Source of the DNA: Pseudomonas sp. CFBP 13711
Lineage (GTDB): Bacteria > Pseudomonadota > Gammaproteobacteria > Pseudomonadales > Pseudomonadaceae
Length of the DNA stretch: 64,000 nt
Reading direction: 5' to 3'
Assembly: GCF_014842265.1 (NCBI RefSeq)
Contig: NZ_JACYVI010000002.1
Span: 62,001 to 126,000 of the forward strand
Shown: positions 27,669 through 48,197 of the stretch, one piece after another
How positions within the stretch are numbered: the stretch's first letter is position 1
Layout of the letters: each line of letters starts with the position of its first letter
Position numbers and translations under genes: made by a program
Notes under the pieces: model-generated
Seen by the model: the letters and a program-made list of their open reading frames with translations, nothing else
Database searches by the model: none
What the model was told of the DNA's origin: nothing

Positions 27669-27675
27669 TCGTTAT
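27669..27675. repeat. Attachment core TCGTTAT, right copy (element 1)
   Basis: Second copy of the 7-bp direct repeat that flanks element 1; it lies in the rulB slice. Confidence 0.75.
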
Positions 27676-27748
27676 TCGACAACACCACGATGGGCGTTTT
27701 GGCGAGGTCAGGCCGAAAGACGCGCTCGCAACTCGCATAAAAGCTGTT
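27669..27748 (-). pseudogene. rulB: rulB middle slice (codons 14-40) between the two elements
   Basis: These 80 bp encode NSFYASCERVFRPDLAKTPI followed by VVLSNND, the conserved N-terminal palm region of RulB/UmuC. The upstream side is cut by the end of element 2 and the downstream side by the end of element 1. Orientation and reading frame agree with the other two rulB pieces, so the three assemble into one gene. Confidence 0.93.
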
Positions 27749-27749
27749 G

Positions 27750-27772
27750 TTCTGGGGCTTGCGAAGAGTTAG
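27750..27772 (+). repeat. Element 2 left terminal inverted repeat
   Basis: TTCTGGGGCTT, then GCGAAGAGTTAG. The outer 11 bp are identical to the right end (48221 downwards) and both share AGTTAG further in. Confidence 0.8.
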
Positions 27773-27837
27773 GAGAAAAGTATCATCCTGCCAACAAATT
27801 AGAAATCGCTTTGTTGAAGCGCGGTTGGAGGAAAGAG

Positions 27838-30659: not shown

Positions 30660-32575
30660 GTGCGAATGTTGCTGACGCGCCGCAGTGGGGCGAGTTGGGA
30701 CTGCAGCCAGGGGATGCTCGCGAACTCTCTGTGAGCGAACGTGAAGCACTCATCATTAGCGCCACTCGGGTAGGAAGCGAGTGGGTCATCCTCAGTCGAT
30801 ACCGTGACATGACTTGGCGGTTAGAGGGGTTCACCAGCAACGTGCCAGACGGTGTACGGGAGATCGACTTCGGTCGCGTCCCCATTGAATTTGTTCTTGT
30901 GATGAAGTCCGTCATGTATCGGTATCTACGCCGGGGCCGTGCCGGACAAAAACGCCCATCGGCGAGTACAGTGCGCAACGTTTTTGAAAACAGCCTGCCG
31001 TTTTTGCGGCACATAAGCACGTTCAAGATCAATCACTTCGGTGCGATAACACCAATGATCTGTGCAAATTATGTCTCTGAGTGCCGGGCTATCCGTCAAA
31101 CACGGCGAAGCAAGGGAAAGCCCTTATCTGCCAGTGCGCTTGAACGGCGCTTTATGGCTGTGGAGGCCCTCTATGAGCTGAGCCAATACACCCACGACCC
31201 AATACCTAGAAACCCTTGGCCTGATACGTCGGCGCGCGCAATGTCGGGGGAGCGTTCGCGGAGCGAAGAGGCCGGCAAGACCCCATTATTACCCGACGAT
31301 GTATTTTGCGCTCTATTCAATAAGGCCCATGAGCAGATTCGGCGTGGTAATGCCTTGCTCGACATCTACGATGATCTAGAGCGCGTCTCTGCGGAGCGTC
31401 ATGGGCAAGTAACCAGAAGCATTCAAGAGGCGAAAACTCGTCGACTTGTTGCTCTTGGCTGGGGCGAAGGGCTTGGGGAGTTTAACCAAGCGATCCAGAG
31501 CCTCAGAACTGCATCTTACATTGTCATAGCTAGCACTTCCGGCTGCCGAAACCATGAGTTGGCGAACGTTATGGCCGGAGCTCACCACAGCACTGAAGAC
31601 GATGAAGGCACCGTCTACCATTGGCTTCGCTCAAGGTCGGAAAAAACCGACGCGGGCCTCCATGATTGGATGATTCCTGAAAGCACAGTATCTGCGGTGC
31701 GCCTAATGGAGCGTTGGGCAGCTCCCTACCAGGCGATGATTACCGACGAAATCGCTAGGCGATGCAGCGTCAATCCGGCTGACCCGCAAATCACCGAAGC
31801 GCAAAAGCATAGGCACGCGCTCTTTCTGGGCGTAACTTCCACGAAAAACAACCTAGTCAGAACTCTCTCGGGCTCGTCCTGGAACAAGTGTCTGAAAGCC
31901 TTCGCAAAGAGTTGTGGCCTCAGTTGGAATCTCGCGAGCCATCAATTCCGCCGAAAATTTGCGAACTACGCTGCGCATAGCAAATTCGGCGACCTGCGCT
32001 ACCTCCGAGAACACTTCGCTCATTGGTCGATGGATATGACGTTAGGTTACGCCATGGATCAGGAATGGGGTCAGCATCTCGATATCGAGCTTTTTGAAGA
32101 TATCCAGTTCGAACTCGAGGACATCAAGTCTGGTGTGGTTAGCGGCTGGTTGGGCAAGTCACCTCTAGGGGGCGGTTACGGAAGATCAATCAAGCAATGG
32201 CACCGAGATCCTAAAAATCTCGCCATTTTCAAAAGCCATGCCTCGATGGTTAAGTCGATTGCCGAGAGCACCTCGATCCGAAGTAATGGCCACTCCTGGT
32301 GTACTGCTGATGATGACGGTTGCGTCGGCAATACAATGGAAAGAACGCGCTGTAGCGGCTGCGACAGCTCTGTGATTGGTGTCCAGCATGCTGGGGTCTA
32401 CCAAGGACTCTTCGACAACCTAAAAGGCTTGTTGGATTGTAAAGACATCGGCGAAGGTGGCCGCCAGCGCGTTCTGCGTGATTTGGATCGCTGTCGGAAT
32501 GTACTGGAACAGCTTGAATTTAAACCGGAGACCATGACGAATGAAAACAACACGCAAGACATCCGACAGTCGTGA
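30656..32575 (+). CDS. Tyrosine recombinase 3 of module 2 (639 aa)
   Basis: Starts with GTG at 30656, overlapping the previous stop (GTGA). Catalytic Arg in ASTSGCRNHELANV, HQFRRKFANY, and FAHWSMDMTLGYAMD with His and Tyr. The C-terminal extension has CTADDDGCVGNTMERTRCSG, a cysteine set like that of recombinase 3 in module 1. Same order and similar size as module 1. Confidence 0.9.
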   Translation: MSANVADAPQWGELGLQPGDARELSVSEREALIISATRVGSEWVILSRYRDMTWRLEGFTSNVPDGVREIDFGRVPIEFVLVMKSVMYRYLRRGRAGQKRPSASTVRNVFENSLPFLRHISTFKINHFGAITPMICANYVSECRAIRQTRRSKGKPLSASALERRFMAVEALYELSQYTHDPIPRNPWPDTSARAMSGERSRSEEAGKTPLLPDDVFCALFNKAHEQIRRGNALLDIYDDLERVSAERHGQVTRSIQEAKTRRLVALGWGEGLGEFNQAIQSLRTASYIVIASTSGCRNHELANVMAGAHHSTEDDEGTVYHWLRSRSEKTDAGLHDWMIPESTVSAVRLMERWAAPYQAMITDEIARRCSVNPADPQITEAQKHRHALFLGVTSTKNNLVRTLSGSSWNKCLKAFAKSCGLSWNLASHQFRRKFANYAAHSKFGDLRYLREHFAHWSMDMTLGYAMDQEWGQHLDIELFEDIQFELEDIKSGVVSGWLGKSPLGGGYGRSIKQWHRDPKNLAIFKSHASMVKSIAESTSIRSNGHSWCTADDDGCVGNTMERTRCSGCDSSVIGVQHAGVYQGLFDNLKGLLDCKDIGEGGRQRVLRDLDRCRNVLEQLEFKPETMTNENNTQDIRQS

Positions 32576-32948
32576 ACGAGATCTGCGACTTGCGTTAGCT
32601 CGCATTCAACGTGGCCGAGCCCATACGGGGGAGTCCAAAGTCACTATTGCCGCAGTAGCTCGTGAGGCCGGAGTCTCAACGGCGTTGATCCATAACCACT
32701 ACCCGAATGTGGCCGAGGCAGTCCGCGAAGCTCAGGGCCGTTCTAGTCGCGCCCAACGCGACGTAAAGCATCAGGATCTCATAGCGGAACGCGAGAAAAA
32801 TAAACTGCTCCGCCAAGAGCTCGAAGAGCTACGCCTGAAAACCGCTGACCTGGCCTCGATTAATGAAGTTCTGATGGCAGAACTGCGAGCCCTAAAAGCA
32901 AGGAGCGGTGACCTTAAAATAGTAGCCCTGCCCTCCCATAAAACGTGA
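32541..32948 (+). CDS. Small HTH/coiled-coil protein of recombinase module 2 (TnpC-like)
   Basis: 135 residues: helix-turn-helix VTIAAVAREAGVSTALIHNH (about 34-53), then a coiled coil rich in Glu/Lys/Leu (EREKNKLLRQELEELRLKTA). Overlaps recombinase 3 by 35 bp. Paralogous to 22528-22959, sharing the SRAQRD-KHQ-L motif just after the HTH. Confidence 0.82.
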   Translation: MKTTRKTSDSRERDLRLALARIQRGRAHTGESKVTIAAVAREAGVSTALIHNHYPNVAEAVREAQGRSSRAQRDVKHQDLIAEREKNKLLRQELEELRLKTADLASINEVLMAELRALKARSGDLKIVALPSHKT

Positions 32949-33480
32949 CCCATAGATAAAACGGTCTGTAATTTTTGTTCCGAGCCGCCAGATGCAAATT
33001 GCACTTCACTTGACCACCTGTCTGCATTCGACCTGACTACCGTTTGCATCGGATTTGACCAGCACGCTTTGTGGCCGTGACCGACAGAGAACGTCCGATT
33101 CTGTTGAAAAAGTCGGCCATGGTTTCCGCGGCAGAAAAGTAAGCGCTTGAGATTGAAATCTTTACTTTGTGCAGAGGATTTCGGGCTCAGATTTCGCGTA
33201 GCTGCGCGCAAAAAATGCATTTTAAGCAGTCAGTACGCGGGCAGTCTGGAAGTACCGACTTTTTCAACACAATCGGCCAAAAGCAGCCGGTCGCATGCGT
33301 CAATAATACCGGTATACAGCTGAGCCACAGTAACCTCCTCAAAATCCACCTCTAATGAGGGTTAGGAGAACAAGCGCTTGGATCAGTGAATAGTCAGCCG
33401 TTGGGTCAGTTGTGCTCCGGCAGTAACCACGTATGGTGTAGAGCTCTTTCCCTATAGGCAAGGTAGATTATCCCTAATCG
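32949..33480. other. Gene-free stretch holding a small palindromic element
   Basis: No protein gene. It contains the 182-bp inverted-repeat element at 33095-33276 and separates the recombinase module from the 3' end of the convergent peptide operon. Confidence 0.6.
33095..33276. mobile_element. MITE-like element or IS relic with 22-bp terminal inverted repeats
   Basis: The left end starts CCGATTCTGTTGAAAAAG at 33095 and the right end reads the same inward from 33276 with a single mismatch over 22 bp (core TGTTGAAAAAGTCGG perfect). The 182 bp between hold no reading frame of note. GTTGAAAAAGTCGG-type ends are common in pseudomonad intergenic elements, so this is probably a non-autonomous derivative of an insertion sequence. 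Confidence 0.7.
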
Positions 33481-35061
33481 TCAAGATGAGCGAAGGCTAG
33501 GGCGGCACAACGAATCGCCCAGAATCATTAGGGTTTCATGGAGAACATCTATATCAGAACAGATACTGGAGAAATCCCAGTGTCGGTTGAATGTGTCGGA
33601 GGTGCGGTGATAAGTATTCGAGTCATAAAAGTCATGCCGTTTCATTCCTTCTTGCACTCCCCCCTTTAGGAGATTGCTTCCGGTACTTACTTGGACTGCA
33701 GGGATGCCGATCTTGGCAAAGCTAGCCTGGTCGGATCGGTAAAAATAGCCCGCGCGAGGATCATCATCTAGGGTGATATGCCGGTCTAGAGCCCTGGCTG
33801 CGCGTATGAAAGTTTCGGGCAGGTCTGACTGATCACCATCCACTAGGCTTAGGTCGCGGGTTTTGCCGATAGGTACAAATCCATCAACGTTGAGCGCAGC
33901 GACCACTTCCAGCCCGGTGCTGCTTATCAATTGTGCTGCTCGCGCGGAACCGAGCATTCCGACTTCTTCTGCAGAAGTCCAAGCAAAAAGTACAGTTCGA
34001 CGTAAAGGAGCGCCTGTAGTTAATCGTCTGGCTAGCTCTAGCAATACGGAAACGCCGACAGCATTGTCGACGGCACCAGGATAGTAACCTCGGGGTTGCG
34101 CTCTGTCTGAACTCTTGCCTAGATGATCCCAATGCGCGCATAGCAATATGCATTGACGGGGAAACAACCTCCCTTTTTTCATGGCCAGTACATTTCGACA
34201 ATGTCTAATATCGATGTTGAAATCTAAACGCACTTTTAAGTAGGCGTTTAGCCAAGATGAGCGATTGCCGGTAGGATAGGGCGCTGCCAAGAACGCATCT
34301 AGGTCGACGCCTGACGTCGCTAACAACTCCCGTCCGAGGCGCTCACTGCAAATGCTCTCAAATGCTAAACCGCCGCGCACTGCCCCCGGCAAAAAACGAA
34401 ACGCACGATGCATCTCGTCTATGACCAATGAAAAGGCGCTGCCAAATAATTCATCAGTGTGGACGATAATCACACCTGCTGCACCTTGCCGAGCGGCCTC
34501 TTCATACTTGTATTCCCAGCGGCCGTAGTAGGTCATTCGCTCACCTAAGAAGCGCTCGCCTCCGGGGTCATTGGGCAGTACCACTACTATCTTACCTGCG
34601 ACATCAATCCCGGCGTAGTCGTCCCACATGTATTGCGGTGCAACGATTCCGTAACCGACGAACACCAGAGGCGTGTTGTCTAAATTAACGCTGATATGCT
34701 GGGATCGAATTAGTAACTCATCCTGATGTAAAAAATCATGCTTCGCTCCGCTCCCAAAGCTGAGCATCTTTAAACTATTCGGTCCAGGCCTGGCAATGGA
34801 ACAGCCCAACGGTACCGATTGGAAGAGGCTCTGGCGCCCGTGCCAACAGGCCAGTCCTAACGCTTTAGCCTTCCTCGCAATCCATCTCGACGCGCGCCAC
34901 CCGCCGTGTTCACCGGCACCGCGCCCTGCGTAAAGCGCACCTGACAAAGTTTTGCAGTGAGCGGCTAGCTCTGCAGCATAGGTCTTGTTTTTGAGGTAGC
35001 CACCAAATGCCGAAGCCTGCTTCGATTTTTGTTTCGTCTTTTTCGGCAACGACCGACGCAT
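33481..35061 (-). CDS. M28-family zinc peptidase with PA domain
   Basis: 526 residues. A protease-associated domain (about 130-220, VFVGYGIVAPQYMWDDYAGI, GKIVVVLPNDPGG, GAAGVIIVHTDELFG) lies before the M28 catalytic domain. The di-zinc ligands are recognisable: CAHWDHLG (His, Asp), GAVDNAVG (bridging Asp), SAEEVGMLGS (Glu base and Glu ligand), NVDGF (Asp) and YHRTSDTF (His). M28 enzymes are aminopeptidases or carboxypeptidases; no signal peptide is visible (basic N-terminus MRRSLPKKTKQKSKQ), suggesting cytoplasmic action. It is the last gene of the peptide operon, 9 bp after the amidohydrolase, so trimming or degrading the operon peptide is a reasonable inference. Confidence 0.87.
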   Translation of the reverse strand: MRRSLPKKTKQKSKQASAFGGYLKNKTYAAELAAHCKTLSGALYAGRGAGEHGGWRASRWIARKAKALGLACWHGRQSLFQSVPLGCSIARPGPNSLKMLSFGSGAKHDFLHQDELLIRSQHISVNLDNTPLVFVGYGIVAPQYMWDDYAGIDVAGKIVVVLPNDPGGERFLGERMTYYGRWEYKYEEAARQGAAGVIIVHTDELFGSAFSLVIDEMHRAFRFLPGAVRGGLAFESICSERLGRELLATSGVDLDAFLAAPYPTGNRSSWLNAYLKVRLDFNIDIRHCRNVLAMKKGRLFPRQCILLCAHWDHLGKSSDRAQPRGYYPGAVDNAVGVSVLLELARRLTTGAPLRRTVLFAWTSAEEVGMLGSARAAQLISSTGLEVVAALNVDGFVPIGKTRDLSLVDGDQSDLPETFIRAARALDRHITLDDDPRAGYFYRSDQASFAKIGIPAVQVSTGSNLLKGGVQEGMKRHDFYDSNTYHRTSDTFNRHWDFSSICSDIDVLHETLMILGDSLCRPSLRSS

Positions 35062-35906: not shown

Positions 35907-36695
35907 CTAGCTACTTGCACTGCTGTAGGATCTGAGGGCAAAAAGCCAAAACACTCGGGAAAGGCAAAGAAACGCCACCGCGAATAAAAGCGCGCCCATA
36001 ACAGCCTGCCATTCGACCAGCCCCATAGCCGCAGCTACCGGCACATTGGAGACGAAATATACCGGAACGAGGAACGTCAAAACCGTGCGAATTGTTTGTG
36101 GGAAAGCCGTTACGGGGAACCGTGCGATCTCCATCAAGGTGTAACTGATGATCCAGACGTCACCGATTTTTACGAACCATATCGACAAGGTGCAGGTTAT
36201 TAAGAATAGCGAGTAAAAAATTGCGACTCCCGCAGCCATAAGCCCGACGAAGGCCATCAGATTGCCTATCCCCAGAGTACCCTCGCTTTGCATGGCGTAA
36301 ATCACTACCGCTCCACCAATCAATACGCGCGGTAATTCCCAAAGGCTTATCTTGGAACAGGAGACCAGAAATTGGCTGTCGACCGGGCGCACAAGCAGAT
36401 AATCTAAGTCTCCGGTACGTACCTGTTCCGAAAGAGCGTGCAGGCTTGGAAACAACCAGACCTCAAGTAAGCCCTCCAGTATTAGAGCCACACCGAACAG
36501 TGCCAGCACTTGGTATAGGTTCCAGCCGCCCAAGCTGCCAACTTCGGTGAACATGGCATCAAGGAAGTACAGAGCCAGAAGCATCCCAACCACAGTATTC
36601 AACGCGTTGGTAAGGGCATTAATGCGAAACTCCAGTTCGGCGAGCATTGAGTGCCTGATCAATGCGAATAGAACTTTCAATGTTCTAAGTCTCAT
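35907..36695 (-). CDS. ABC-2 type exporter permease, second subunit
   Basis: From ATG 36695, overlapping the previous stop as ATGA, it is 262 residues with six hydrophobic helices. It fits the uncharacterised ABC-2 permease family usually encoded beside a partner permease and a 325-residue ATPase, as here. Expected to form the transmembrane channel as a heterodimer with the product of 36692-37495. Substrate unknown; the operon suggests the modified peptide or a derived metabolite. Confidence 0.85.
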   Translation of the reverse strand: MRLRTLKVLFALIRHSMLAELEFRINALTNALNTVVGMLLALYFLDAMFTEVGSLGGWNLYQVLALFGVALILEGLLEVWLFPSLHALSEQVRTGDLDYLLVRPVDSQFLVSCSKISLWELPRVLIGGAVVIYAMQSEGTLGIGNLMAFVGLMAAGVAIFYSLFLITCTLSIWFVKIGDVWIISYTLMEIARFPVTAFPQTIRTVLTFLVPVYFVSNVPVAAAMGLVEWQAVMGALLFAVAFLCLSRVFWLFALRSYSSASS

Positions 36696-37495
36696 ATGCC
36701 TGCTCCGGAATACTGCTTCAAGCCCCGTCGCCATAGGCCCCGGCGAAATGCGACCAGCATCACCACCCAGAACAACTGAACCGCAAATCCATATAACAGG
36801 TCGACACCGACAACCTTGCCGATCAATACCTTGACGGGAAAATCCAGCGACGCGGAAAACGGCAGCATCGCCACCAGGTATCTTGAGGTCTCAGGAAACA
36901 AATCGACGGGAATCAGCATACCGCCCAGGACGGTGTACATTGACCAGACCATCGCATCCAGAGCAAGGGAGTTCGCCATCCAGAATGCCAGCAGCCCGAC
37001 ACAGTAATAGATATGAAAAATGATGATCCAAGCGAGGATGAGCGAGATTAGGAAGAAAGGCATTCGCCAGGCAATAGCCGTCAGGTCGATGGCGAACATC
37101 GCGGCACCAACACAGAACACCGTCACTACGATCGGCGCGCGAACCAGCATCTGCCCCAAATGCTCAGCCACATGAAACCAGAATGGTGCGACCGGTTTAA
37201 GTAGGCGGCTCGACAGGGTTCCTTGGCGTATCTCATCGTTGAGAACGAAGATGACCCAGACTGCAGTCAGTTGCCTGACCAAGTAGATACCCAGAAAATA
37301 CGCCACAAAATCATTTGCGGAATAGCCACCGATTACCTTTTCCCTCGAGAGCTCCCACCAGATCATCATCATGAACAGTGGTGCAACGCCGCTAATGAGC
37401 CACACGAACAACTGAGCGCGGTATACCAAGGTCACCAGCACGCTTGTACGGATTAGGCGCTTGGCGATACCAGACCAAGAAACTAGAGTGAGCAT
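36692..37495 (-). CDS. ABC-2 type exporter permease, first subunit
   Basis: 267 residues, about six membrane helices, starting MLTLVSWSGIAKRLIRTSVL. The start overlaps the ATPase stop by 1 bp (TGATG) and the end overlaps the next permease, so all three exporter genes are translationally coupled. Confidence 0.85.
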   Translation of the reverse strand: MLTLVSWSGIAKRLIRTSVLVTLVYRAQLFVWLISGVAPLFMMMIWWELSREKVIGGYSANDFVAYFLGIYLVRQLTAVWVIFVLNDEIRQGTLSSRLLKPVAPFWFHVAEHLGQMLVRAPIVVTVFCVGAAMFAIDLTAIAWRMPFFLISLILAWIIIFHIYYCVGLLAFWMANSLALDAMVWSMYTVLGGMLIPVDLFPETSRYLVAMLPFSASLDFPVKVLIGKVVGVDLLYGFAVQLFWVVMLVAFRRGLWRRGLKQYSGAGI

Positions 37496-38481
37496 CAGGC
37501 ATGCTCCTTTGGCAATAGTAAGCGCGGGAATGCCTGCTCCAAGGACGGGCTCTGAATCGAGATGTCTGTCACCGGAAAGCTGGTCAGCAGCTGAGCTAGG
37601 GTGTTAGCGAACTGCTCCTCTGCTACCAGCAGTTCAGCGCTTTCGCTGTCCAGGTTAATCAACTTGCCATAAGCAGCGAGTTCTTCGCTCTCGACCGTGC
37701 GGGAAAAGCGCAGGCTGACCCGCCGCTCATTTACATGTGCTTTCACCAGCGCATGCCGGCCACCGTCGAATACTACATGGCCGTGATCAAGCACAATAAC
37801 CCGGTTGGCCAATGCCTCGATGTCCGCCATGTAATGGGAGGTAAGGATGATCGTTGCACCAAATTTCCGATTGTAGTCGGCAAGGAATTCACGAATCGCG
37901 ACTTGCATTTCTAGGTCTAGGCCAATGGTCGGTTCGTCAAGAAACAGAACGCTCGGGCGATGAAGCAATGAAAGGATAAGCTCACACTTCATCCGCTCAC
38001 CCAGGGACAGTTTTCTAACCGGACGACGAATGATGTCATCCGCCGACAGCAGCGTACACAACTCGTCGATCCGCCTTCTGCACTCGATAGGCGGAATATC
38101 GTAAATGGCGCCATGCAAGTGAAAGGACTCCAAAGCGGGGAGGTCCCAGGTCAGTTGTTGCTTTTGCCCCATGACCAGTGCGATTGATTTAAGGAATTCC
38201 GCTCTTCTTTTGAAAGGGTCGTGGCCAAGCACCGATAAGTGCCCGCCGCTAGGTCGTACAATGCCCGAAAGCATTTTCAACGTCGTCGTTTTACCCGCCC
38301 CGTTACCGCCGAGAAAGCCTACGACCTCACCGGCCTCGATTGAAAAGGAGACGTCCTGCACTGCGGGGATATATGCCTTCTCACGACGAAAATATCCGAG
38401 CAAGCTGCGCGAATGGCCGTCACGGGCGCGGTATACTTCGTATACTTTGCTGATATCACACAGCTCAATTGCTTTTGACAT
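37495..38481 (-). CDS. ABC exporter ATP-binding protein
   Basis: 328 residues. Walker A GGNGAGKTT, Q-loop MGQKQQLTWD, signature LSLGERMKCELILSLL, Walker B VLFLDEPTIGLDLEM, and switch His in TSHYMADIEAL. The C-terminal 90 residues form the extra domain of this ATPase group. It energises the two downstream permeases. Self-protection by efflux or secretion of the operon product is the likely role. Confidence 0.92.
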   Translation of the reverse strand: MSKAIELCDISKVYEVYRARDGHSRSLLGYFRREKAYIPAVQDVSFSIEAGEVVGFLGGNGAGKTTTLKMLSGIVRPSGGHLSVLGHDPFKRRAEFLKSIALVMGQKQQLTWDLPALESFHLHGAIYDIPPIECRRRIDELCTLLSADDIIRRPVRKLSLGERMKCELILSLLHRPSVLFLDEPTIGLDLEMQVAIREFLADYNRKFGATIILTSHYMADIEALANRVIVLDHGHVVFDGGRHALVKAHVNERRVSLRFSRTVESEELAAYGKLINLDSESAELLVAEEQFANTLAQLLTSFPVTDISIQSPSLEQAFPRLLLPKEHA

Positions 38482-38562: not shown

Positions 38563-39396
38563 TTACTGGCTGCGGGCCAAAAGCCGTGCCTGATGCCACT
38601 CAGGGTCCAAACCTGTGCAAAGCACAAGACAGAACGATGGTGCGAGCTGCGACTGCGCCAGCAAACCTACGCCCGCCACTTCATCCAATATGAAGTCGGC
38701 CGCCTTAAGCATAGACATTGTCCGGTCCAAGTTGATCGTAGCCATATGTACTAGGCACGATGCTTGGGACAGAACCAACGGTCCATCGTAGCGTGGCGCA
38801 TGGCTATTTAGAAAAGCCAGCCACTGATGTCCGATGGTAAAGCCCCCCTCTTTCATTGCACTCGCGCCTGTAAGTGCGCCGAGGCTGGTGAGGTAATGAT
38901 GTTGCTCCAGCTCAGGCAGGTTGCAGCACAGCGACACCGCGATGATCGCAAACAAGCCATTGTCTGGTACTCGAAGAGTAAGATCTCCACCGATGCCGCG
39001 TAGGTATTCTATCAGCGACACTCTCACGTCTTCCCCGCAGCGAGTAGGTAAGTGTGTGATCAACCACGCTGGTTCATCGTCCCCTAGCGGTGACTTCTCT
39101 ATTATTTCCAGAGCCTCACGCTGCAAGATTGGCAAGCTTTCAACCTCTGCCACTAGATCCTTTGAACAGAGCCAGATCGAGCAAGAGCTTTCGTAGTGCT
39201 CCCTGCCAGGGCGCGAGCCATCAGAGCAAAATTCTAAATAACCCCCAGTAACTCTGAAGAAGGCGCTGATCCGGCCATCGCTATGGTGCACTCGTCGGGT
39301 GTGCTCCATGAAACCGGCACGTACCATCTGCTCGATTACATCATTGAGCTGGTCTGTTGGTACCAGGTAGACGATATGATCCAGGCGCGATATCAC
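38563..39396 (-). CDS. VOC/glyoxalase-like protein, two-lobe
   Basis: The start is GTG at 39396, preceded by GGAGGGG at 4-bp spacing, giving 277 residues (VISRLDHIVYLVPTDQLNDV). The N-terminal half is a VOC-type module (strand LDHIVYLV, GGYLEFCSD). The second half is a more diverged module ending LAPSFCLVLCTGLDPEWHQ. No clear catalytic metal triad can be assigned. It may be an enzyme or a binding protein for the operon product. Confidence 0.6.
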   Translation of the reverse strand: MISRLDHIVYLVPTDQLNDVIEQMVRAGFMEHTRRVHHSDGRISAFFRVTGGYLEFCSDGSRPGREHYESSCSIWLCSKDLVAEVESLPILQREALEIIEKSPLGDDEPAWLITHLPTRCGEDVRVSLIEYLRGIGGDLTLRVPDNGLFAIIAVSLCCNLPELEQHHYLTSLGALTGASAMKEGGFTIGHQWLAFLNSHAPRYDGPLVLSQASCLVHMATINLDRTMSMLKAADFILDEVAGVGLLAQSQLAPSFCLVLCTGLDPEWHQARLLARSQ

Positions 39397-39456
39397 CAGT
39401 CCCCTCCTTAATTGCGGGCAACCCATCAAAGGAGCTATAACTTCGCCCTGCTTCGG

Positions 39457-40104
39457 TTACTCATGAACAATTTCCGATGGACTTCGTCCTCGCGTACAGA
39501 GGGTCAGACCGTGCTCGTGAACGCCACCGCTTTTTATTTCTTGTGTAACCCCTTGCAAACCCACAGCCTTAAATGCGTCCAGGTAACGGCTTTGCGGCCA
39601 ACGTGTAAGCTTCACGCCTAGCTCCTCCGACCAGTCTCGCGATTCTTCACTCTCTTCGTAATAGTCCACCATGACGATCAGTTCACCGCCAGGCGCGAGT
39701 AGGCCTGAGGCTTTTTTGATTGCGGCGGAAATGTCTTGGAAGTAATAGAACACCTCCATAGAAAAGATCAGGTCGAATTTCACGTCTTTCGGTGCATGCC
39801 AGTTCAGAAAGCTTCCGACATCAATGGAGACGTTGTCCAAGTCCTGAACTCTAGCGGCGCTCATGTTCGCCATTTCCTGGCTGAGCTCCACCGCCCGGAC
39901 TCTGCCGTTGGCGAACTTTAATCTGGCTATGTACTCGAGTGCATAACCATTGCCCGGCCCAATTTCTAGATACCAGCCTTCACTAGGCGTCAGTGCAGAC
40001 AATACTGGCTCGACGCGAGCCCAATGTTCTCGGGCCATATCCACAGCCCCATCTTCGATTGCCCATTCGTCGAAAAGCGCTTCGACTTCCAGTTCGTGAC
40101 TCAT
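39457..40104 (-). CDS. Class I SAM-dependent methyltransferase
   Basis: From ATG 40104 (AGGAG 8 bp upstream) it is 215 residues. Motif I is YLEIGPGNGYALEYIA, motif II acidic residue in VRAVELSQEM, motif IV FDLIFSMEVFYYFQD, and post-motif LAPGGELIVMVDYYEE. A small-molecule or peptide methyltransferase of the UbiE-like fold. In this operon it may methylate the precursor peptide or a metabolite. The substrate cannot be predicted. Confidence 0.87.
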   Translation of the reverse strand: MSHELEVEALFDEWAIEDGAVDMAREHWARVEPVLSALTPSEGWYLEIGPGNGYALEYIARLKFANGRVRAVELSQEMANMSAARVQDLDNVSIDVGSFLNWHAPKDVKFDLIFSMEVFYYFQDISAAIKKASGLLAPGGELIVMVDYYEESEESRDWSEELGVKLTRWPQSRYLDAFKAVGLQGVTQEIKSGGVHEHGLTLCTRGRSPSEIVHE

Positions 40105-40140
40105 CCGATACTCCTGTTTGCTGCAAGGATTCAACCCTTA

Positions 40141-41286
40141 CTAGGGGACCCATTGATAAAAATGCACTGCATTACGATGCGAGCCGATCACTAGATGGCC
40201 ATCGTCCGTCAGCAACGGCGAAGAATGAAAGCCTCCCCTGTGTTCGAGGCACCACAGAGTCTCTCCTGTGTGTTGTGCGAGACAATGCAGACGCTCATCG
40301 GTGCCTACAAACAACGCATCGCCACTTGGAAGCACAGTAAAGGGCGTGTACCTAAACTCGCACTTTAGGTTTACCCGCCACAGCACTTCCAGTGTTTGAA
40401 GGTCAATACCGTGAACATACCCATCGTTGCTGCCGACATACGCCACCCCCTGGGGGGACAGGCTCGGGCATGAAACTACGAAGCCGTCCGTTGTGAATTG
40501 CTTGAGAACTTCACCGTTTCTAGTATCAAATACAATAATTTTTCCATCTATTTCTGTGCCAATGATTCCACGCCCAGAGGGATAATCGATCGCCGCAGTC
40601 CCTTCGAACCTGCTTGTCTCGGTTATTCTCCAACGCTCTTCGCCTGTTGGACTTAAGCACATCAGAATATTGTCCGTGCCCACAATGATGTTGCCGTCCG
40701 CGTTCAGCGCCGGTGAGCTATAAAGGTCATCCTCGACCTGTTCGTCGAACGATCGCTTCCATAATAATGTGCCGGTGGCGAGGTCAAGAGCGTAAAGCGT
40801 GTGGTCATAGCTGCCTGCGTACACAATGTTCTTCGCACAGTCGATTGTCGCACTCGCATGAAACGCCCCTTGTGCCTCAAAGGTCCAGAGACATTGGCCT
40901 TCACGGCTTATCCGACGCAATACATAATCTTCGCAGCCCACGACGAAGCTGCCATCTTCAGATACAGCTGGGGAGCTATAAACCGGGCCTTGAGTGGTAA
41001 AGCGCCAAAGGCTTGCGCCATCACTCAGGCGCACGCATTGCAGGCTATTGTCCCAACAACCAAATACAATACGATCATCCGCGATTCGGCATGGAATGCT
41101 CCATACCCTTTCTTCGCAGGAAATAGTGCGCTGATAAGAGGGTGGCAATTGCCAGTCCACTGACGAGGTATTTCGCCATGGGCGGTGACAGCGAAGCGCC
41201 TGATTATTCTTGTACCAAGTGGTCTGCAAGTGCTTTGCGTAATCCGCCTCTGCGCTCCGGCCCAGGAATTTTTCATCCATCAACAT
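40141..41286 (-). CDS. PQQ-type beta-propeller protein
   Basis: 381 residues built of about seven repeats with the PQQ-propeller signature (GASLWRFTTQGPVYSSPAVS, LYALDLATGTLLWKRSF, VHGIDLQTLEVLWRVNL, and so on). There is no signal peptide, so it is probably cytoplasmic, unlike the periplasmic PQQ dehydrogenases, and probably acts as a scaffold or binding protein. Its start overlaps the VOC gene stop. No PQQ biosynthesis genes are present. Confidence 0.82.
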   Translation of the reverse strand: MLMDEKFLGRSAEADYAKHLQTTWYKNNQALRCHRPWRNTSSVDWQLPPSYQRTISCEERVWSIPCRIADDRIVFGCWDNSLQCVRLSDGASLWRFTTQGPVYSSPAVSEDGSFVVGCEDYVLRRISREGQCLWTFEAQGAFHASATIDCAKNIVYAGSYDHTLYALDLATGTLLWKRSFDEQVEDDLYSSPALNADGNIIVGTDNILMCLSPTGEERWRITETSRFEGTAAIDYPSGRGIIGTEIDGKIIVFDTRNGEVLKQFTTDGFVVSCPSLSPQGVAYVGSNDGYVHGIDLQTLEVLWRVNLKCEFRYTPFTVLPSGDALFVGTDERLHCLAQHTGETLWCLEHRGGFHSSPLLTDDGHLVIGSHRNAVHFYQWVP

Positions 41287-41714
41287 AGTATCCGTCCGGC
41301 CGGCTCAATGCCGCCGCCATATTTTTCGGATATTTCGACCTTGTAGCCATTCGGGTCTAGAAAATAAACAGAGCGAGAGGAGTGGTAGTTAACCTCATAA
41401 TCAGGAAGTAATTTGACGCCATGGTCGCGCAGCTGTGACAGAACACTATCAAAGTCTTTAACCAAAATTCCAAAATGGGTTATTTCCAGACCGTCATTTT
41501 TTACGCCACGACCTTCGGCATATTCGTGCATACATAAATAAAGTGCTTGGTTGGTACCGATTACCATCCAGCGCGTAAATGCGCGAATACCTACTTCTTT
41601 AACTTCAAAGCCAAATACTCGCGCATAAAAATCTAGGCTTTCCTCAATATTTGCAACGTCGAGTTGAATATGATCGACACCCAAAATATTGATTTTATCA
41701 AGCGGTGTACTCAT
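41280..41714 (-). CDS. VOC-family enzyme
   Basis: 144 residues, single VOC fold: ILGVDHIQLDVANIEESLDF (metal His), LEITHFGILVKD (second His), and VYFLDPNGYKVEISEKYGG (closing Glu). All ligands of a glyoxalase/dioxygenase-type metal site are present, so catalytic activity is plausible. It overlaps both neighbours (ATGA with the upstream gene). Confidence 0.85.
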   Translation of the reverse strand: MSTPLDKINILGVDHIQLDVANIEESLDFYARVFGFEVKEVGIRAFTRWMVIGTNQALYLCMHEYAEGRGVKNDGLEITHFGILVKDFDSVLSQLRDHGVKLLPDYEVNYHSSRSVYFLDPNGYKVEISEKYGGGIEPAGRILC

Positions 41715-42964
41715 CGGATCATCTCCCGATATTCTTCCGTCATCAGCCCGGCCGCTTCCCAGTCGTCAATGTAAGACTTGAAGAAAGACATGTGCTCGGG
41801 TAGATGCGCACGTGCCACTCCATATCCGGAAATTCCAGCTGATATGTTTGTAGCATCCAGTAAAAGAGTATTTTTAAACGCATCCAGTGCCAGGTCAAAC
41901 TTCCCAAGTTGCTGGTTACAAGCGCCGATCATGTACTGAGAGTAAGTCCGTCGCGGGAAACCGATATCGTAAGCCTCCTGAAAACGCTGAGAAGCACGCT
42001 GCCACTGCCCATCTTTCATTTCCACCTCTGCGGCTTCATGATAGGAAATGCTCCAGTGTGGATCGAAGTGAATCAGTTCTTCCGCTACTTCCCTGGCATT
42101 CTCAACATCTCGGGCAACGTAGAGCATTTCCTTCAGCTTCGACTCGTAGACGGTCTTGCGTGCTTCTCTCGCAGGGATACTTCGTCCCTTTTCGCTGTTA
42201 ATTACCGCCTCGGCATAGTTTTCCGCTAGCAGCATGTATTGCCGCGTGGCCGAGATATCACCTTTAGCAGCAGGCACCATGGCCAATCCGCGATAAAACG
42301 AAGAAAGTGAAACCAGATCAACCGGTTCGTAGCTCGATGCTATTTGCTTAGCAGCTGCCTCACCGGTGTCAATGAACCACCTATTCAATTCGTCATTGAT
42401 CGCGTTGCCTTTCAGTTTCCAGACAATAGCCTGCGAGCATACGTCCAACACCCTAGCGGGGGCTGTTTGATTTGATTGTATGAGCGCTCTTAGCGCGGTG
42501 AAATCTTCTTGATGTGATGAAGTGATTTCTAGGCGATTCTGAATGGCAAACCGGGTGAGATGGTAGGTCAACCGTTGATCGGGGAAGAGTCTCTCATACG
42601 GTACCTTCGCCAGCACTTCATTGGCGAAGCGGTACCTGCAGCTGGCGGCCAAACATTGGGCCAAGCTAAGCATCTGTACGGGGGGCGCCCAATCCAGCAT
42701 GTCCGCCAGCCACTTAACTTTGGCCACCGGACCATCCATGGGATACGAGAAATATTCGAGTTCATCAATTCCGATTGAGTGTCTTTGGGCTACCTCAAAC
42801 AGCGTTGAGGGTTCAAGCAGCTGAGGAACCCGATAAGGCACTTCGTCAAAGTTCTGTTCGGCCAAGCCTGCGCATACGGAGCGAGACCAGTTTGTCTGAT
42901 GCGCACCTGCATCTTCGTAAAAAAACACGGCGCGTGAAAATGCGTCATCCAATTTGCTGTGCAT
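41711..42964 (-). CDS. Helical-repeat (TPR-like) protein, first large gene of the peptide operon
   Basis: 417 residues, all-helical by composition. The C-terminal half has TPR-like units (WSISYHEAAEVEMKDGQWQR, YSQYMIGACNQQLGKFDLAL, then DAFKNTLLLDATNISAGISG). I find no helix-turn-helix, so it is not a classical RRNPP regulator, but TPR proteins are well-known binders of short peptides, and this gene directly follows two 18-residue peptide genes. Possible roles: peptide recognition, a scaffold for the modifying enzymes, or sensing. No named family recognised. Confidence 0.65.
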   Translation of the reverse strand: MHSKLDDAFSRAVFFYEDAGAHQTNWSRSVCAGLAEQNFDEVPYRVPQLLEPSTLFEVAQRHSIGIDELEYFSYPMDGPVAKVKWLADMLDWAPPVQMLSLAQCLAASCRYRFANEVLAKVPYERLFPDQRLTYHLTRFAIQNRLEITSSHQEDFTALRALIQSNQTAPARVLDVCSQAIVWKLKGNAINDELNRWFIDTGEAAAKQIASSYEPVDLVSLSSFYRGLAMVPAAKGDISATRQYMLLAENYAEAVINSEKGRSIPAREARKTVYESKLKEMLYVARDVENAREVAEELIHFDPHWSISYHEAAEVEMKDGQWQRASQRFQEAYDIGFPRRTYSQYMIGACNQQLGKFDLALDAFKNTLLLDATNISAGISGYGVARAHLPEHMSFFKSYIDDWEAAGLMTEEYREMIR

Positions 42965-43007: not shown

Positions 43008-43034
43008 TACGGCCGAAGCAACGCCTCGGCCGTA
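43008..43034 (-). promoter_or_regulatory. Hairpin upstream of the TPR gene (possible leaky terminator)
   Basis: Perfect 9-bp stem TACGGCCGA/TCGGCCGTA with a 9-base loop, followed on the minus strand by TTTAAAC. The T run is too short for a strong terminator, so read-through into the operon is expected. Confidence 0.6.
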
Positions 43035-43037
43035 CCT

Positions 43038-43059
43038 CACAAGACACCGGTATCTTGTG
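43038..43059 (-). promoter_or_regulatory. Second hairpin downstream of peptide gene A
   Basis: 7-bp stem CACAAGA/TCTTGTG with an 8-base loop, 13 bp past the stop of peptide A. With the hairpin at 43008-43034 it could stabilise or attenuate the transcript so that peptide mRNA exceeds operon mRNA. Confidence 0.55.
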
Positions 43060-43071
43060 TACAGCGGACAA

Positions 43072-43128
43072 TCAGAGGATGAACAGTGCCGACAAGATTC
43101 GATTCTGTACGCTAGTGAACTTAATCAT
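43072..43128 (-). CDS. 18-residue peptide A, MIKFTSVQNRILSALFIL
   Basis: A tiny gene, ATG 43128 to TGA 43072, with AAAAGGAG 7 bp before the ATG. The product is 18 residues: a polar front (MIKFTSVQNR) and a hydrophobic end (ILSALFIL). No cysteine, no leader-type cleavage site. Sixteen of 18 residues match peptide B, while nine codons differ only synonymously. Hairpins follow the stop. It stands as the second gene of the operon ahead of the TPR protein. It could be a precursor of a modified peptide, a secreted leaderless peptide, a signal, or (less likely) a leader peptide. Pseudo-symmetry with peptide B and the conserved ribosome site make chance unlikely. Confidence 0.8.
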   Translation of the reverse strand: MIKFTSVQNRILSALFIL

Positions 43129-43152
43129 GTTGAATCTCCTTTTAGTAGTCAT

Positions 43153-43170
43153 GGATAACTCACGTTATCC
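43153..43170 (-). promoter_or_regulatory. Hairpin between the two peptide genes
   Basis: Perfect 7-bp stem GGATAAC/GTTATCC with a 4-base loop, downstream of peptide B and upstream of the ribosome binding site of peptide A. A possible processing or stability element. Confidence 0.5.
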
Positions 43171-43224
43171 GTTATTTCAGGCCTAGCCAAACAACTCTAG
43201 TTCGGTAGGCAAAAAATTACTGCT

Positions 43225-43281
43225 TCAGAGGATGAACAGCGCGGAAAGCATCCGGTTTTGTACACTATGAAATTTAATCAT
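43225..43281 (-). CDS. 18-residue peptide B, MIKFHSVQNRMLSALFIL
   Basis: ATG 43281 to TGA 43225, with GGAG 8 bp upstream. It differs from peptide A only at residue 5 (His for Thr) and 11 (Met for Ile). Codons for Lys3, Phe4, Ser6, Gln8, Asn9, Arg10, Leu12, Ser13 and Ala14 differ without changing the residue. It is the promoter-proximal gene of the operon, about 50 bp after a candidate promoter. The two copies may give a two-component product or simply raise dose. Confidence 0.8.
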   Translation of the reverse strand: MIKFHSVQNRMLSALFIL

Positions 43282-43332
43282 TTCACGATCTCCATGTGAT
43301 TTAAGGTCTGCTGCATAACTGCAGCGCTTTAA

Positions 43333-43700: not shown

Positions 43701-45674
43701 ATGAAATCCCTGAATCTGGGTATTCTCGCGCATGTCGATGCAGGCAAAACCAGCCTCACTGAGCGGATTCTTTTCGAAGCTGGAGCCCGGGTCTGTTTGG
43801 GCAGCGTAGATACAGGCAGCACATTCACTGACAGCCTTCTGCTTGAGCGTGAACGAGGCATTACGATCAAGTCGGCAGTTGCCTCTTTCGAGCTGAATGG
43901 GGTGCTTATAAATTTATTGGATACCCCTGGGCACCCGGATTTCATCGCCGAGGTGGAACGCGCGCTTGTCTTGTTGGACATTGCGATCATAGTGGTATCG
44001 GCGGTTGAACGCGTCCAAGCTCAAACCCGAGTTTTAGTAAACGCGCTAGAGCGAATGGAGATACCGTACGTATTCTTCATTAACAAAATTGATCGCAAAG
44101 GGGCAAGTTTTCAGCAAACCTTGGAAGCGCTCGGCACGCAGCTCAAGTGCCATCCGCTTGCCCTATGCGATGTGAAGAGTGCTGGGTCCAGCATGGCAGT
44201 CGTTGAGTACGACATGCCGCTCAGTTCGTGGATGCTGTCTCAATGGCTGGATGTACTTTGCGAGCATGATGATGTGTTGCTGCACGAATATGTCACAACC
44301 CCCAAACTCATCAATAAGGAGCGCCTTGAACAGGCGTTACGTACGCAGCTTGGCGATAACCTAGTAAATCCCGTGTTCGCTGGATCAGCTATCACTGGGG
44401 CTGGTGTCGCAGCAATGATCGAAGCGATCACGTATCTGGGGCCAATTAGGCATTGCAACGCTAATGCCCCCCTGAACGCATCAGTCTTCAAGATCGATAG
44501 AGGTTGGGGTGGTCACAAGCGCTTTCACCTAGTGATTCTTGCAGGGACGTTGCATCTAAGGCAAACCGTCGAAACTCCGCATGGCTCCTGCAGAGTCACC
44601 GGAATTTATGTGTCTGCAAGTGGTGGCCTACAATCCGCGAGGGAAGCCACTGCAGGTCAGATCGCATGTGTTATCGGGCTTGACGGCGTTCGCATTGGTG
44701 ATCGTATAGGCGTTTGCAGCGCGCGGGACGAAGGAGTGCATACCTTTACACCTCCTGCAATCGAAACACATGTATACGCAGCGTTGTCGATTCAGACCAA
44801 AGCACTTTGGGAAGCTCTGATCGCCCTGGCCGAGCAGGATCCGCTAATTGACCTGCGAAGGAATACTGCAGGTCAGATGTTCGTCTCGCTGTACGGAGAA
44901 GTACAGAAAGAGATCATCCAAGCTATCTTGCAGGATGAATATGCTATCCAGGCTAAGTTCGAAGAGAGCTCTGCAATCTGCGTCGAAGCATTGCTTGGCA
45001 CGGGGGAAGGACTTGAATCGCTTGGTGACCCTTCTAACCCATTTTTGGCTACGGTAGGGTTACATGTCACTCCGAGAGCACCTGGATCGGGACAAATATT
45101 TACCCGCAAGGTCCATGCCGGTTTAATGCCCGCGAGCTTTTACAAGGCGATCGAGGAGTCTGTTATCAAAACTCTCGGTGAAGGAAGACATGGATGGCCG
45201 GTATGCGACTGCGAGGTCACCCTGACGATGGTGGATTATGAATCCCCTTCAAGCACGGCTGCTGACTTTAGGCATCTCACGCCGCTCGTGCTAGCTGCAG
45301 CGATCGAACAGGCGGGCACCACAGTATGCGAGCCGCGAAGCCAGTTTCATATCGAGGTCCCCATAGCTCAGAGTGCATCGATCCAAACGCTACTGGCCAG
45401 GGCAGGGGCCATCACTACTGGCGCGACGATAAGCGAAGGAACGGTTCGGATCAAAGGCTCAATCGTCACAACTAAAATTTACAAACTGCAACATGAAATT
45501 CCCAACGTCACCAGCGGTCTCGGATTCATTGAAAGTGAATTCGCGGCTTATGCACCTGTTCCCGGAGCACCTCCTAGCCGTGATCGCAGCATGTCCAACC
45601 CTTACCATAGGCATGAATACCTGCGCCATATTAGGCTTGGGACTCGCATTGGCCAACCGGTTAACAGCGCCTGA
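43701..45674 (+). CDS. EF-G-like ribosomal protection protein (Tet(M)/OtrA type)
   Basis: 657 residues, ATG 43701 with AGGAG 9 bp upstream. The GTPase domain is complete: AHVDAGKT (10-17), RGIT (52-55), DTPGH (74-78), NKID (128-131). The opening LNLGILAHVDAGKTSLTERI and LGSVDTGSTFTDSLLLERER is typical of tetracycline ribosomal-protection proteins rather than housekeeping EF-G, and domains III-V (QTLLARAGAITTGATISEG, GLGFIESEFAAYAPVPG) follow. Such proteins use GTP to dislodge ribosome-bound inhibitors. It diverges from the peptide operon across a shared 420-bp control region, so the simplest reading is self-resistance against a ribosome-directed product; resistance to tetracyclines is the alternative. 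Confidence 0.88.
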   Translation: MKSLNLGILAHVDAGKTSLTERILFEAGARVCLGSVDTGSTFTDSLLLERERGITIKSAVASFELNGVLINLLDTPGHPDFIAEVERALVLLDIAIIVVSAVERVQAQTRVLVNALERMEIPYVFFINKIDRKGASFQQTLEALGTQLKCHPLALCDVKSAGSSMAVVEYDMPLSSWMLSQWLDVLCEHDDVLLHEYVTTPKLINKERLEQALRTQLGDNLVNPVFAGSAITGAGVAAMIEAITYLGPIRHCNANAPLNASVFKIDRGWGGHKRFHLVILAGTLHLRQTVETPHGSCRVTGIYVSASGGLQSAREATAGQIACVIGLDGVRIGDRIGVCSARDEGVHTFTPPAIETHVYAALSIQTKALWEALIALAEQDPLIDLRRNTAGQMFVSLYGEVQKEIIQAILQDEYAIQAKFEESSAICVEALLGTGEGLESLGDPSNPFLATVGLHVTPRAPGSGQIFTRKVHAGLMPASFYKAIEESVIKTLGEGRHGWPVCDCEVTLTMVDYESPSSTAADFRHLTPLVLAAAIEQAGTTVCEPRSQFHIEVPIAQSASIQTLLARAGAITTGATISEGTVRIKGSIVTTKIYKLQHEIPNVTSGLGFIESEFAAYAPVPGAPPSRDRSMSNPYHRHEYLRHIRLGTRIGQPVNSA

Positions 45675-45688: not shown

Positions 45689-46657
45689 TCATATTGTAGA
45701 GGCGTTACTGATTTCATTCAGTTGGCACAGTGCGTGCTGCGATAGTTGCAGCTGCGCGGCCCCCATGATCTCTAGCAATTGCTCAACAGTACTAGCGCCA
45801 ACCACTGGCGCAATTACAGCCGGACGTGAGAGCAACCAAGCGAGTGAGACTTGCGTACATGTCTTGCCGTATTCCTGAGCAACTCCACGCACGACCTCAA
45901 GAGTCCGCCAGTTCCTCTCATTGAAGTAGACGCTGCGCACTCCCTCCGCCCGTGGCGATCCCGGCAACTTCGCGTCGGGGTAATACTGACCGCAAAGAAA
46001 CCCCTTGGCCAATGGGTTGTATGGCAATAAACCTACACCCTCCGCAGCGCATAGCGATTGTAGTTCAGCCTCGACCCGGACGCGTTCAAGCAGGTTATAG
46101 CGTTCTTGGATGCTAACGTAACTGCTCCATCCGCAGTGTTCGCTGATCCCGAGCGACTTCATCAGTCGCCAAGCCTTGAAGTTGGAACATCCAGTGTAAC
46201 GAACCAGCCCTCGCTGGACGAGGTTGTCGAACGCCCGCAAGGTCTCTTCGACTGGAACGTCGTCATAATCATCATGCGCTTGATACAAATCGATGCAGTC
46301 GACCTGCAACCGGCGCAGCGAACCCTCAACTGCCTTTGTGATATGCCGCCAAGATAGTCCCTCTTCGTTTGGTCCGGGACCCATCCGCCCAGATACTTTT
46401 GTTGCCAACAACACATCGTGACGTTTGGCCGTGGTTTTCAACCAGCGTCCGACGAACTCCTCTGAAGCTCTGCCACCCACGCCATCGCCCAAAACTGGAT
46501 AGACGTCTGCGGTATCGATCAAATTGCCGCCTGCGTCGACATATGCGTCGAATAAACGATGTGATGTCGCTTCATCTACCCACCAATCACATTGAGCCGT
46601 TCCTAGCGCGATGGTGGAAACTTTCAGCCCCGAGTGGCCAAGGCGCCTGAAATTCAT
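45689..46657 (-). CDS. Aldo/keto reductase
   Basis: 322 residues, (beta/alpha)8 fold. Catalytic tetrad positions are visible: Asp in LIDTADVYP, Tyr in DVYPVLG, Lys in LLATKVSGR and His in YQAHDDYDD. It uses NADPH for reduction of aldehydes or ketones. It is convergent with the resistance gene (14-bp gap). It may be part of the cargo pathway or an independent passenger. Confidence 0.85.
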   Translation of the reverse strand: MNFRRLGHSGLKVSTIALGTAQCDWWVDEATSHRLFDAYVDAGGNLIDTADVYPVLGDGVGGRASEEFVGRWLKTTAKRHDVLLATKVSGRMGPGPNEEGLSWRHITKAVEGSLRRLQVDCIDLYQAHDDYDDVPVEETLRAFDNLVQRGLVRYTGCSNFKAWRLMKSLGISEHCGWSSYVSIQERYNLLERVRVEAELQSLCAAEGVGLLPYNPLAKGFLCGQYYPDAKLPGSPRAEGVRSVYFNERNWRTLEVVRGVAQEYGKTCTQVSLAWLLSRPAVIAPVVGASTVEQLLEIMGAAQLQLSQHALCQLNEISNASTI

Positions 46658-47106: not shown

Positions 47107-47820
47107 ATGCAAGACGCATTGCCGAACGTACACACCTCCCTGATCGATATTCCTTCGTTGGATCGACTGACGCCACGTGCACCCTCACTTCATAAACCTC
47201 GAATTCTTCTTCTTTACGGATCGACGCAAGATCACTCAATTAGCCGGTTAGCCACGCAAGAAGCAGCACGCCTACTGGAGGAGTTTGGAGCTGAAACCGA
47301 AATTTTCGATCCTTCAGGTCTTCCGTTACCGGACGAGGCGCTCGAGACCCATCCGAAAGTAACGAAGTTACGCGAGCTGATGGAGTGGTCTGAAGGACAG
47401 GTGTGGTGTTCTCCTGAGATTCACGGTGCTATGAGCGCGGTCTTCAAGGCCCAGATTGACTGGGTTCCTCTGGAGATAGGTACGGTACGACCGACCCAGG
47501 GAAAGACTCTCGCGGTGATGCAGGTATGCGGTGGCTCCCAATCATTTAACGTGGTGAATCAGCTACGAGTATTAGGCCGATGGATGCGGATGTTCACTAT
47601 TCCGAATCAGTCTTCCGTTGCCAGGGCGTTTACTGAGTTCGATGAAATAGGGCGTATGAAGCCGTCCTCGCACTACGACCGTTTAGTAGATCTTATGGAG
47701 GAGTTGATGAAGTTCACACTTCTCCTACGAGACAGGCAGGACTACCTCATTGATTGTTACTCCGGAAGAAAAGAGTCCGCTGAAGAGCTATCTAGGTTGC
47801 AGGCTGACAGGGATTGCTGA
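47107..47820 (+). CDS. arsH: Arsenical resistance flavoprotein ArsH
   Basis: 237 residues. An NADPH-dependent FMN reductase with the flavodoxin-like [20 protein letters not shown] phosphate-binding loop and the ArsH signatures [40 protein letters not shown] and [17 protein letters not shown]. It oxidises trivalent organoarsenicals or reduces quinones/metal ions. Here it lacks arsR, arsB and arsC neighbours. GGAG lies 6 bp before the ATG. It is the last gene before the right end of element 2. Confidence 0.92.
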
Positions 47821-48197
47821 AAGACGACTGGCATACTGAAACGACCCAGATATCTAAACGAACCTAAGTGATCTCTCTTGGCCGGCTGCTGCCGTTCACC
47901 AGAGGCAGCTTTGGGTCGTCTTCTGCCGGTGATGATCAAGAAGCGTGCTGGTCGAATCCAGCCCAAAGGACTGGTCAGGTCGAATGCAAACGGGCGGGCA
48001 AGTCTGTGCAACTACCCGGCCAGAAACTCGATTGCCGCGTGGAGTCCTGCGATGCCCCTCCATGCCTGATCCTTGGAGCCACATGGATAGCGGATGTGCA
48101 GAGCCCGATTAACGTGGTCGACGACCACCTCAAAAACAAAAAAACGTGAAAAAAGTTACCTAGCCTAACCACCTGTATTCTCAAGAAAAAATCTTAT
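47821..48197. other. Gene-free stretch at the right end of element 2
   Basis: No convincing gene. A GGCAG...CTGCC pair near 47901-47925 resembles intergenic palindromes of pseudomonads but is single. Confidence 0.45.

Follow-up and report, generated by a model that had tools for sequence, protein, structure and literature searches.

The peptide gene pair

Two small tandem genes open a long minus-strand operon in a stretch of 64,000 nucleotides from Pseudomonas sp. CFBP 13711 (contig NZ_JACYVI010000002.1, positions 62,001 to 126,000), which as a whole is called the window below. Each of them encodes a peptide of 18 residues, and the gene that follows the pair encodes a tetratricopeptide repeat (TPR) protein. 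An earlier note, made from the sequence alone, had proposed two 18-codon open reading frames (ORFs) at this place, each with its own Shine-Dalgarno site; both are present at the minus-strand coordinates given there, and both sites are of the GGAG type.

43225..43281, minus strand: ORF1, 18-residue peptide MIKFHSVQNRMLSALFIL; Shine-Dalgarno TGGAGA; orthologues in loci L003, L004, L017, L019 and L020
43072..43128, minus strand: ORF2, 18-residue peptide MIKFTSVQNRILSALFIL; Shine-Dalgarno AAAGGAG; orthologues in the same five loci

ORF1 and ORF2 differ at 13 of 57 nucleotides, and these differences change two amino acids and leave nine further codons altered only synonymously. By the Nei-Gojobori method the proportion of synonymous differences (pS) is 0.76 and that of nonsynonymous differences (pN) 0.09, and in a simulation 13 random substitutions produced two or fewer amino acid changes in 3 of 200,000 trials. 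Because pS greatly exceeds pN and random substitution so seldom gives so few amino acid changes, the constraint lies on the peptide itself: selection on the two ORFs acts at the protein level, which bears out what the note had concluded from the codon differences.

The note had further suggested looking for homologous ORFs beside the same operon elsewhere, and these were found. An orthologous pair precedes the same TPR gene in five more Pseudomonas genomes, namely P. neuropathica (L003), Pseudomonas sp. AKS31 (L004) and three others (L017, L019 and L020); L018 (genome G231) has the same peptides as L004, and the two are counted once. Variation among the pairs is confined to residue 4 (F or Y), residue 5 (H, Q, N or T) and residue 11 (M or I), all other residues being identical. 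When 398 Pseudomonas genomes were scanned with a degenerate pattern of the 5' half, five genomes matched, each of them twice and never more than 150 nt away from the TPR gene, and the reversed pattern used as a control had no match in the same genomes. Relatives of the TPR protein are present in six of the 398; five of these are the genomes with the peptide pattern and the sixth is G396 (locus L021). Within this draw, the peptide motif strictly co-occurs with the biosynthetic genes. A phylum-wide draw gave a TPR relative in one of 398 genomes, the window's own, and a draw of 144 relatives of G396 gave one in G396 itself only. In the class of G554 none of 385 genomes had a TPR relative, but with no known positive in that class the empty result is uninformative.

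The operon and its conserved core

Behind the peptide genes, ten genes run on the minus strand from 42964 down to 33481 with intergenic gaps of at most 81 nt, in agreement with the note's description of a long operon with modifying enzymes and an exporter.

41711..42964, minus strand: protein with a TPR superhelix, 417 aa, candidate partner for peptide binding; TPR models below Pfam cut-offs; pLDDT 95; relatives in four lineages
41280..41714, minus strand: VOC-fold protein (VOC144), 144 aa, candidate catalytic core; invariant H15, H80 and E127
40141..41286, minus strand: 381-aa beta-propeller of the PQQ/BamB type; by eye, no signal peptide is evident
39457..40107, minus strand: S-adenosylmethionine-dependent methyltransferase; Rhizobium relative 49.5%
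38563..39429, minus strand: 288-aa protein, no family match; weak similarity (20%, 2e-5) to a VOC protein encoded in the Rhizobium cluster
37495..38481, minus strand: ABC exporter ATPase, DrrA-like; TIGR01188 212.6 bits, below the cut-off of 312
36692..37495, minus strand: ABC-2 permease 1; PF06182
35907..36734, minus strand: ABC-2 permease 2; PF06182
35071..35844, minus strand: amidohydrolase; Rhizobium relative 40%
33481..35061, minus strand: M28 metallopeptidase; Rhizobium relative 29%

The TPR protein, VOC144 and the PQQ-type propeller form a core that is shared by four lineages: the window, a plasmid of Rhizobium rhizogenes (pC5.7d, L005), a plasmid of Macrococcus armenti (L006) and G396. 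Identities to the window proteins are, for Rhizobium, Macrococcus and G396 respectively, 38, 28 and 33% in the aligned part of the TPR protein, 61, 56 and 40% in VOC144, and 39, 27 and 24% in the propeller. The window and Rhizobium further share the methyltransferase, the amidohydrolase, the M28 peptidase, a TetM-like GTPase and, weakly (20%), the 288-aa protein, the structure model of which is too poor for use (mean pLDDT 41). The clusters of G396 and Macrococcus have in common an arginase-family protein and a MATE exporter (about 22%), and the G396 cluster has in addition a JmjC protein and, as judged by eye, an O-methyltransferase; its arginase-family and JmjC proteins are tailoring, not class-defining, enzymes. 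Pfam and NCBIfam scans of the window operon recognised no class-defining maturase of the described classes of ribosomally synthesised and post-translationally modified peptides (RiPPs). The general mark of a RiPP locus is a small gene for a precursor that lies together with genes for modifying enzymes; the gene cluster and the co-occurrence show such an arrangement here, with enzymes that would act on the peptide.

In a structure search the fold of the TPR protein resembled LGN, a subunit of the anaphase-promoting complex (APC/C), Rap and NprR, with LGN, the APC/C subunit and others scoring above Rap. Further TPR relatives appeared in Marininema and Cytobacillus in a protein search, in which genomic position is not assigned. 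Two Streptomyces plasmids match the TPR query over 41% of its length only, and the one that was inspected has no such cluster.

In the Rhizobium cluster the phosphonate genes aepX, aepY and one for a 2-aminoethylphosphonate transaminase are interspersed among those for the amidohydrolase, the propeller and the M28 peptidase; together with a gene for a hydroxylase weakly like methylphosphonate hydroxylase they lie within L005 3585-12829 and 16004-18265. Because these genes are interleaved with the cluster, its product is suggested to contain a phosphonate. On the Macrococcus plasmid the TPR gene (L006 14004-15257) is broken by an in-frame stop, and that cluster may therefore be decaying; a ThiF-family protein is encoded about 7 kb from the same gene.

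Distant members of the peptide family

The motif M-x-x-[FY]-x-S-x6-S-[AS]-x-F is common to the window pair, an 18-residue ORF of Rhizobium and a 55-residue ORF of G396. The VOC gene lies about 200 nt ahead of the Rhizobium ORF, MVEFTSTKMEILSSLFII, which starts at position 15869 of L005. At 6798 of L021 the ORF of 55 residues, which has a Shine-Dalgarno site, precedes an M3 peptidase gene and the TPR gene. In a gap-free alignment its residues 1-18, MIKYESTEFAKVSAYFRS, agree with the 18-mers at M1, I2, K3, F/Y4, S6, S13, A14 and F16, and it carries an acidic tail. This 55-mer has three matches among database proteins (98, 82 and 75% identity), one of which is assigned by name to P. syringae, and a profile built on the 55-residue family found the same three. 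In a ranking of 3150 ATG-initiated ORFs of 14-60 aa from eight sequences (background mean -14, standard deviation 9.1) the window pair came first and second, the Rhizobium ORF third (score 47) and the 55-mer fourth (28), with the best unrelated ORF at 21. A 19-residue ORF with a similar ALF stretch stands before the Macrococcus cluster.

Hairpins around the peptide genes

43310..43325, minus strand: palindrome GCTGCA-GTTA-TGCAGC, located 5' of the Shine-Dalgarno site of ORF1; the stem has 6 bp in four of five aligned loci and 5 bp in L020 (by eye)
43039..43058, minus strand: hairpin 1 after ORF2, ACAAGATACCGGTGTCTTGT; identical in five aligned loci
43008..43034, minus strand: hairpin 2 after ORF2, TACGGCCGA..TCGGCCGTA; terminator-like with a weak T tract; nearly identical in five aligned loci

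Hairpins 1 and 2 together fold at -34.3 kcal/mol (z -4.0), and the DNA from the end of ORF2 through hairpin 1 is invariant in the five loci. Stable hairpins also lie 3' of the peptide gene in L003 (z -4.9), L005 (-3.7), L006 (-9.7) and L021 (-2.6). The site called in L005 by a strict terminator scan precedes the peptide gene, and Rfam gave no structured RNA family in the window at gathering thresholds.

The TetM-like GTPase

43701..45674, plus strand: divergent TetM/OtrA-like ribosomal protection GTPase, candidate self-immunity; Rhizobium relative 50%
45689..46657, minus strand: aldo/keto reductase, syntenic, adjoining the TetM-like gene in the window-type Pseudomonas loci

The window GTPase scores 597 bits and its Rhizobium counterpart 635, the former below the curated level of NF012153 (cut-off 775). 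It is the presence of such a gene in two of the four lineages, and this one line of evidence, that suggests the ribosome as the target of the product. In Agrobacterium (L008, 6958-13947) a TetM-like gene with 51% identity to that of the window lies beside three tyrosine recombinase genes and has no cluster next to it; therefore such GTPases also travel alone. The earlier note had mentioned neither this gene as a likely cluster member, nor the hairpins behind the peptide genes, nor the nucleotide invariance of their 3' ends that is taken up below.

Probable precursors of a modified peptide

We consider it likely that the two peptides serve as minimal precursors of a RiPP whose class is undescribed; for the product we predict export from the cell and action on the ribosome. 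The precursor reading is preferred because it accounts for the constraint at the protein level, for the strict co-occurrence with the biosynthetic genes in the draw of 398 genomes, for a peptide gene whose place with respect to the TPR gene varies, for the longer 55-mer and for the hairpins. Of the three identities offered in the earlier note, the precursor of a modified peptide has the best support, from conservation, from the relatives in Rhizobium and in the divergent Pseudomonas, and from the conserved gene set; the leaderless secreted peptide and the intercellular signal fit that gene set less well.

The gene content permits a sequence of events to be proposed. The hairpins could let the short peptide mRNA build up to a higher level than the enzyme mRNA, in the manner of microcin C. 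The TPR superhelix, with its fold like LGN and Rap, would bind the precursor and so replace a long leader, and the VOC protein with its H/H/E metal site could then perform the core modification with the propeller as its partner. The methyltransferase, the amidohydrolase and the M28 peptidase would finish and trim the product, the ABC transporter would export it, and the TetM-like GTPase would clear it from the producer's own ribosomes. This order, from TPR binding through VOC chemistry, trimming and export to TetM-like immunity, is predicted, and we infer it throughout. Taken to its full extent, the proposal describes a new class of ribosomal peptide antibiotics, in which a leaderless-type 18-mer is presented by the TPR protein to a VOC metalloenzyme and a propeller, the TetM-like GTPase clears the blocked ribosome site and the Rhizobium version is a phosphonopeptide; this combination is put forward tentatively, as a possibility that is less likely than not.

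If the precursor reading is true, there exists a RiPP class with precursors too short for usual gene calling, and since its core of VOC, TPR and propeller proteins is not among the RiPP markers in the literature searched, further clusters would be missed today. The TetM-like gene beside the cluster hints at a translation inhibitor, and such genes could guide the way to similar compounds.

Several observations weigh against this reading. Its Macrococcus peptide is assigned by position only, because the sequence score is not significant (rank 926 ungapped and 40 with one gap among the 3150 ORFs), and the Rhizobium peptide gene does not stand at the head of the TPR operon. The TetM-like gene is found in two of the four lineages only (window and Rhizobium), and related genes occur on plasmids without the cluster. 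No report in the open-licence literature searched describes the core proteins (VOC, TPR, propeller) acting on a RiPP. The non-conserved spacer between ORF1 and ORF2 folds stably as well (z -3.7), so that a stable fold alone is not specific, and the strict scan called no terminator after the peptide genes of the window, L005 and L021, but only in L006. Lastly, CTGTTCATCCTCTGA ends both ORFs (43072-43086 and 43225-43239) and is invariant in all eight distinct copies from five loci: codons 15-18 and the stop never vary, whereas codons 2-14 all do (permutation P 0.0003, in a test that ignores codon degeneracy and relatedness). Peptide-level selection does not explain this invariance at the nucleotide level; translation coupled to hairpin formation would, and the question is thereby posed whether translation of the precursor is coupled to expression of the operon.

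For that reason the 3' invariance is the best argument for an alternative in which the 18-mers are regulatory leader peptides, and a ribosome that stalls or terminates near LFIL-stop sets the hairpin fold and attenuates or induces the operon, the trigger being, for instance, the ribosome inhibitor that the cluster itself would make. The two stable hairpins after ORF2 and their conservation in the five aligned loci speak for attenuation, as does the adjacent translation-factor-like gene, and in the window itself the position of the ORFs upstream of the operon would fit. We nevertheless regard it as unlikely: in Rhizobium the peptide gene follows the VOC gene and has a different gene downstream, in the 55-mer the S-A-x-F spacing is kept from the start codon and not from the stop codon, and the strict terminator scan of the window was empty. 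Two tandem leader peptides are, moreover, unusual, which is counted against attenuation. It should also be considered that the 18-mers are signals, exported unmodified or trimmed by the ABC transporter and sensed by the TPR protein as a Rap-like receptor, since its fold resembles the peptide sensors Rap and NprR and the peptide genes stand directly before the TPR gene in the window-type Pseudomonas loci. The likeness is generic, however, with LGN, the APC/C subunit and others outscoring Rap, a Pfam scan reported no DNA-binding domain in the TPR protein, and the VOC and propeller genes that accompany the TPR gene in all four lineages would be left unexplained, which makes signalling very improbable. 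Two near-identical small hydrophobic peptides next to a dedicated ABC exporter could also recall an unmodified, leaderless, membrane-active two-peptide bacteriocin; this can hardly be credited, as it would leave unexplained the conserved genes for the VOC protein, the propeller, the methyltransferase, the amidohydrolase and the TetM-like GTPase, and likewise the 55-mer, which has an acidic tail.

Comparison with known systems

The precursor reading finds its closest parallels in RiPP and microcin C logic, although the core gene set fits no described class that was found. According to PMC6495379, a terminator lies between mccA and mccB, and ribosome binding to mccA induces termination, which yields the peptide in excess. 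The likeness to microcin C consists in a very short precursor gene, a hairpin between the precursor and enzyme genes, an exporter with a peptidase, and precursors that are long in some clusters and short in others (PMC6495379 and PMC7136475). On the other hand, Pfam and NCBIfam matched no MccB-type ThiF adenylyltransferase among the ten window operon proteins, the window precursor has 18 residues instead of 7 and no C-terminal Asn, and the core consists of the TPR, VOC and propeller proteins. At the position of the microcin C terminator the window has stable hairpins, with a weak T tract and no match in the strict scan.

The arginase-family and JmjC proteins of L021 recall biphenomycin-type clusters, since according to PMC12707348 the bip cluster combines an arginase, a JmjC protein and a TPR-annotated gene, the TPR-annotated BipC being the arginase itself. 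The biphenomycin type is marked by an MNIO plus a B12 radical SAM enzyme; among the ten proteins of the window operon, in contrast, Pfam gave no MNIO, radical SAM or arginase-family match. Biarylitides are likewise encoded by genes of few codons that automatic annotation misses (PMC13417212), but they use a P450 and a 5-residue precursor, and no P450 is among the Pfam matches of the window operon. With Rap/Phr and other RRNPP systems the window shares a TPR superhelix encoded next to a short peptide; it differs in that Pfam found neither a helix-turn-helix nor a Rap output domain in the TPR protein, the fold match of which is to the generic superhelix, and in its biosynthetic neighbourhood. 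In leader peptides of the erm and tnaC types, as in the window, hairpins come after a short ORF that stands ahead of an operon, but the family motif here is fixed to the start and not to the stop, and the position of the Rhizobium gene does not fit.

The peptide core sequence had no related report in the open-licence literature, the single match being unrelated, and among the matches listed no title or abstract described the peptide family. The main text of a paper on peptide arginases (PMC12703449) contains no mention of Pseudomonas, VOC or propeller proteins.

Flanking region

47107-47820: arsH; TIGR02690 385 bits, above the cut-off

The arsH gene is solitary: inspection of the ORF list by eye showed no further arsenic gene in its vicinity, and the Rhizobium cluster has a weaker ArsH-like protein (209 bits against a cut-off of 292). 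Arsenic detoxification was dropped as a part of the cluster, arsH lying at its edge and having no match in the L003 stretch. Anti-phage defence was likewise rejected: PADLOC matched one of eight proteins only, the methyltransferase to mad2, and this was taken as generic. A phage or viral origin was set aside too, with no TPR relative in phage records or in any of 48 pattern-matched viral stretches, and no viral contig with the peptide pattern.

An imperfect inverted repeat of 90 nt (74%; 33008-33096 and 47914-48003) brackets the whole cluster together with arsH; none of the eight other loci compared contains a match to it. In this genome the cluster may be the cargo of a mobile element. At 27427-32948 lie three consecutive large genes, the first for an integrase (PF00589) and the next two without a Pfam match, and then a small gene with a DUF6262 match below the cut-off, a module that we take to resemble the Tn554-type or trio recombinase modules.
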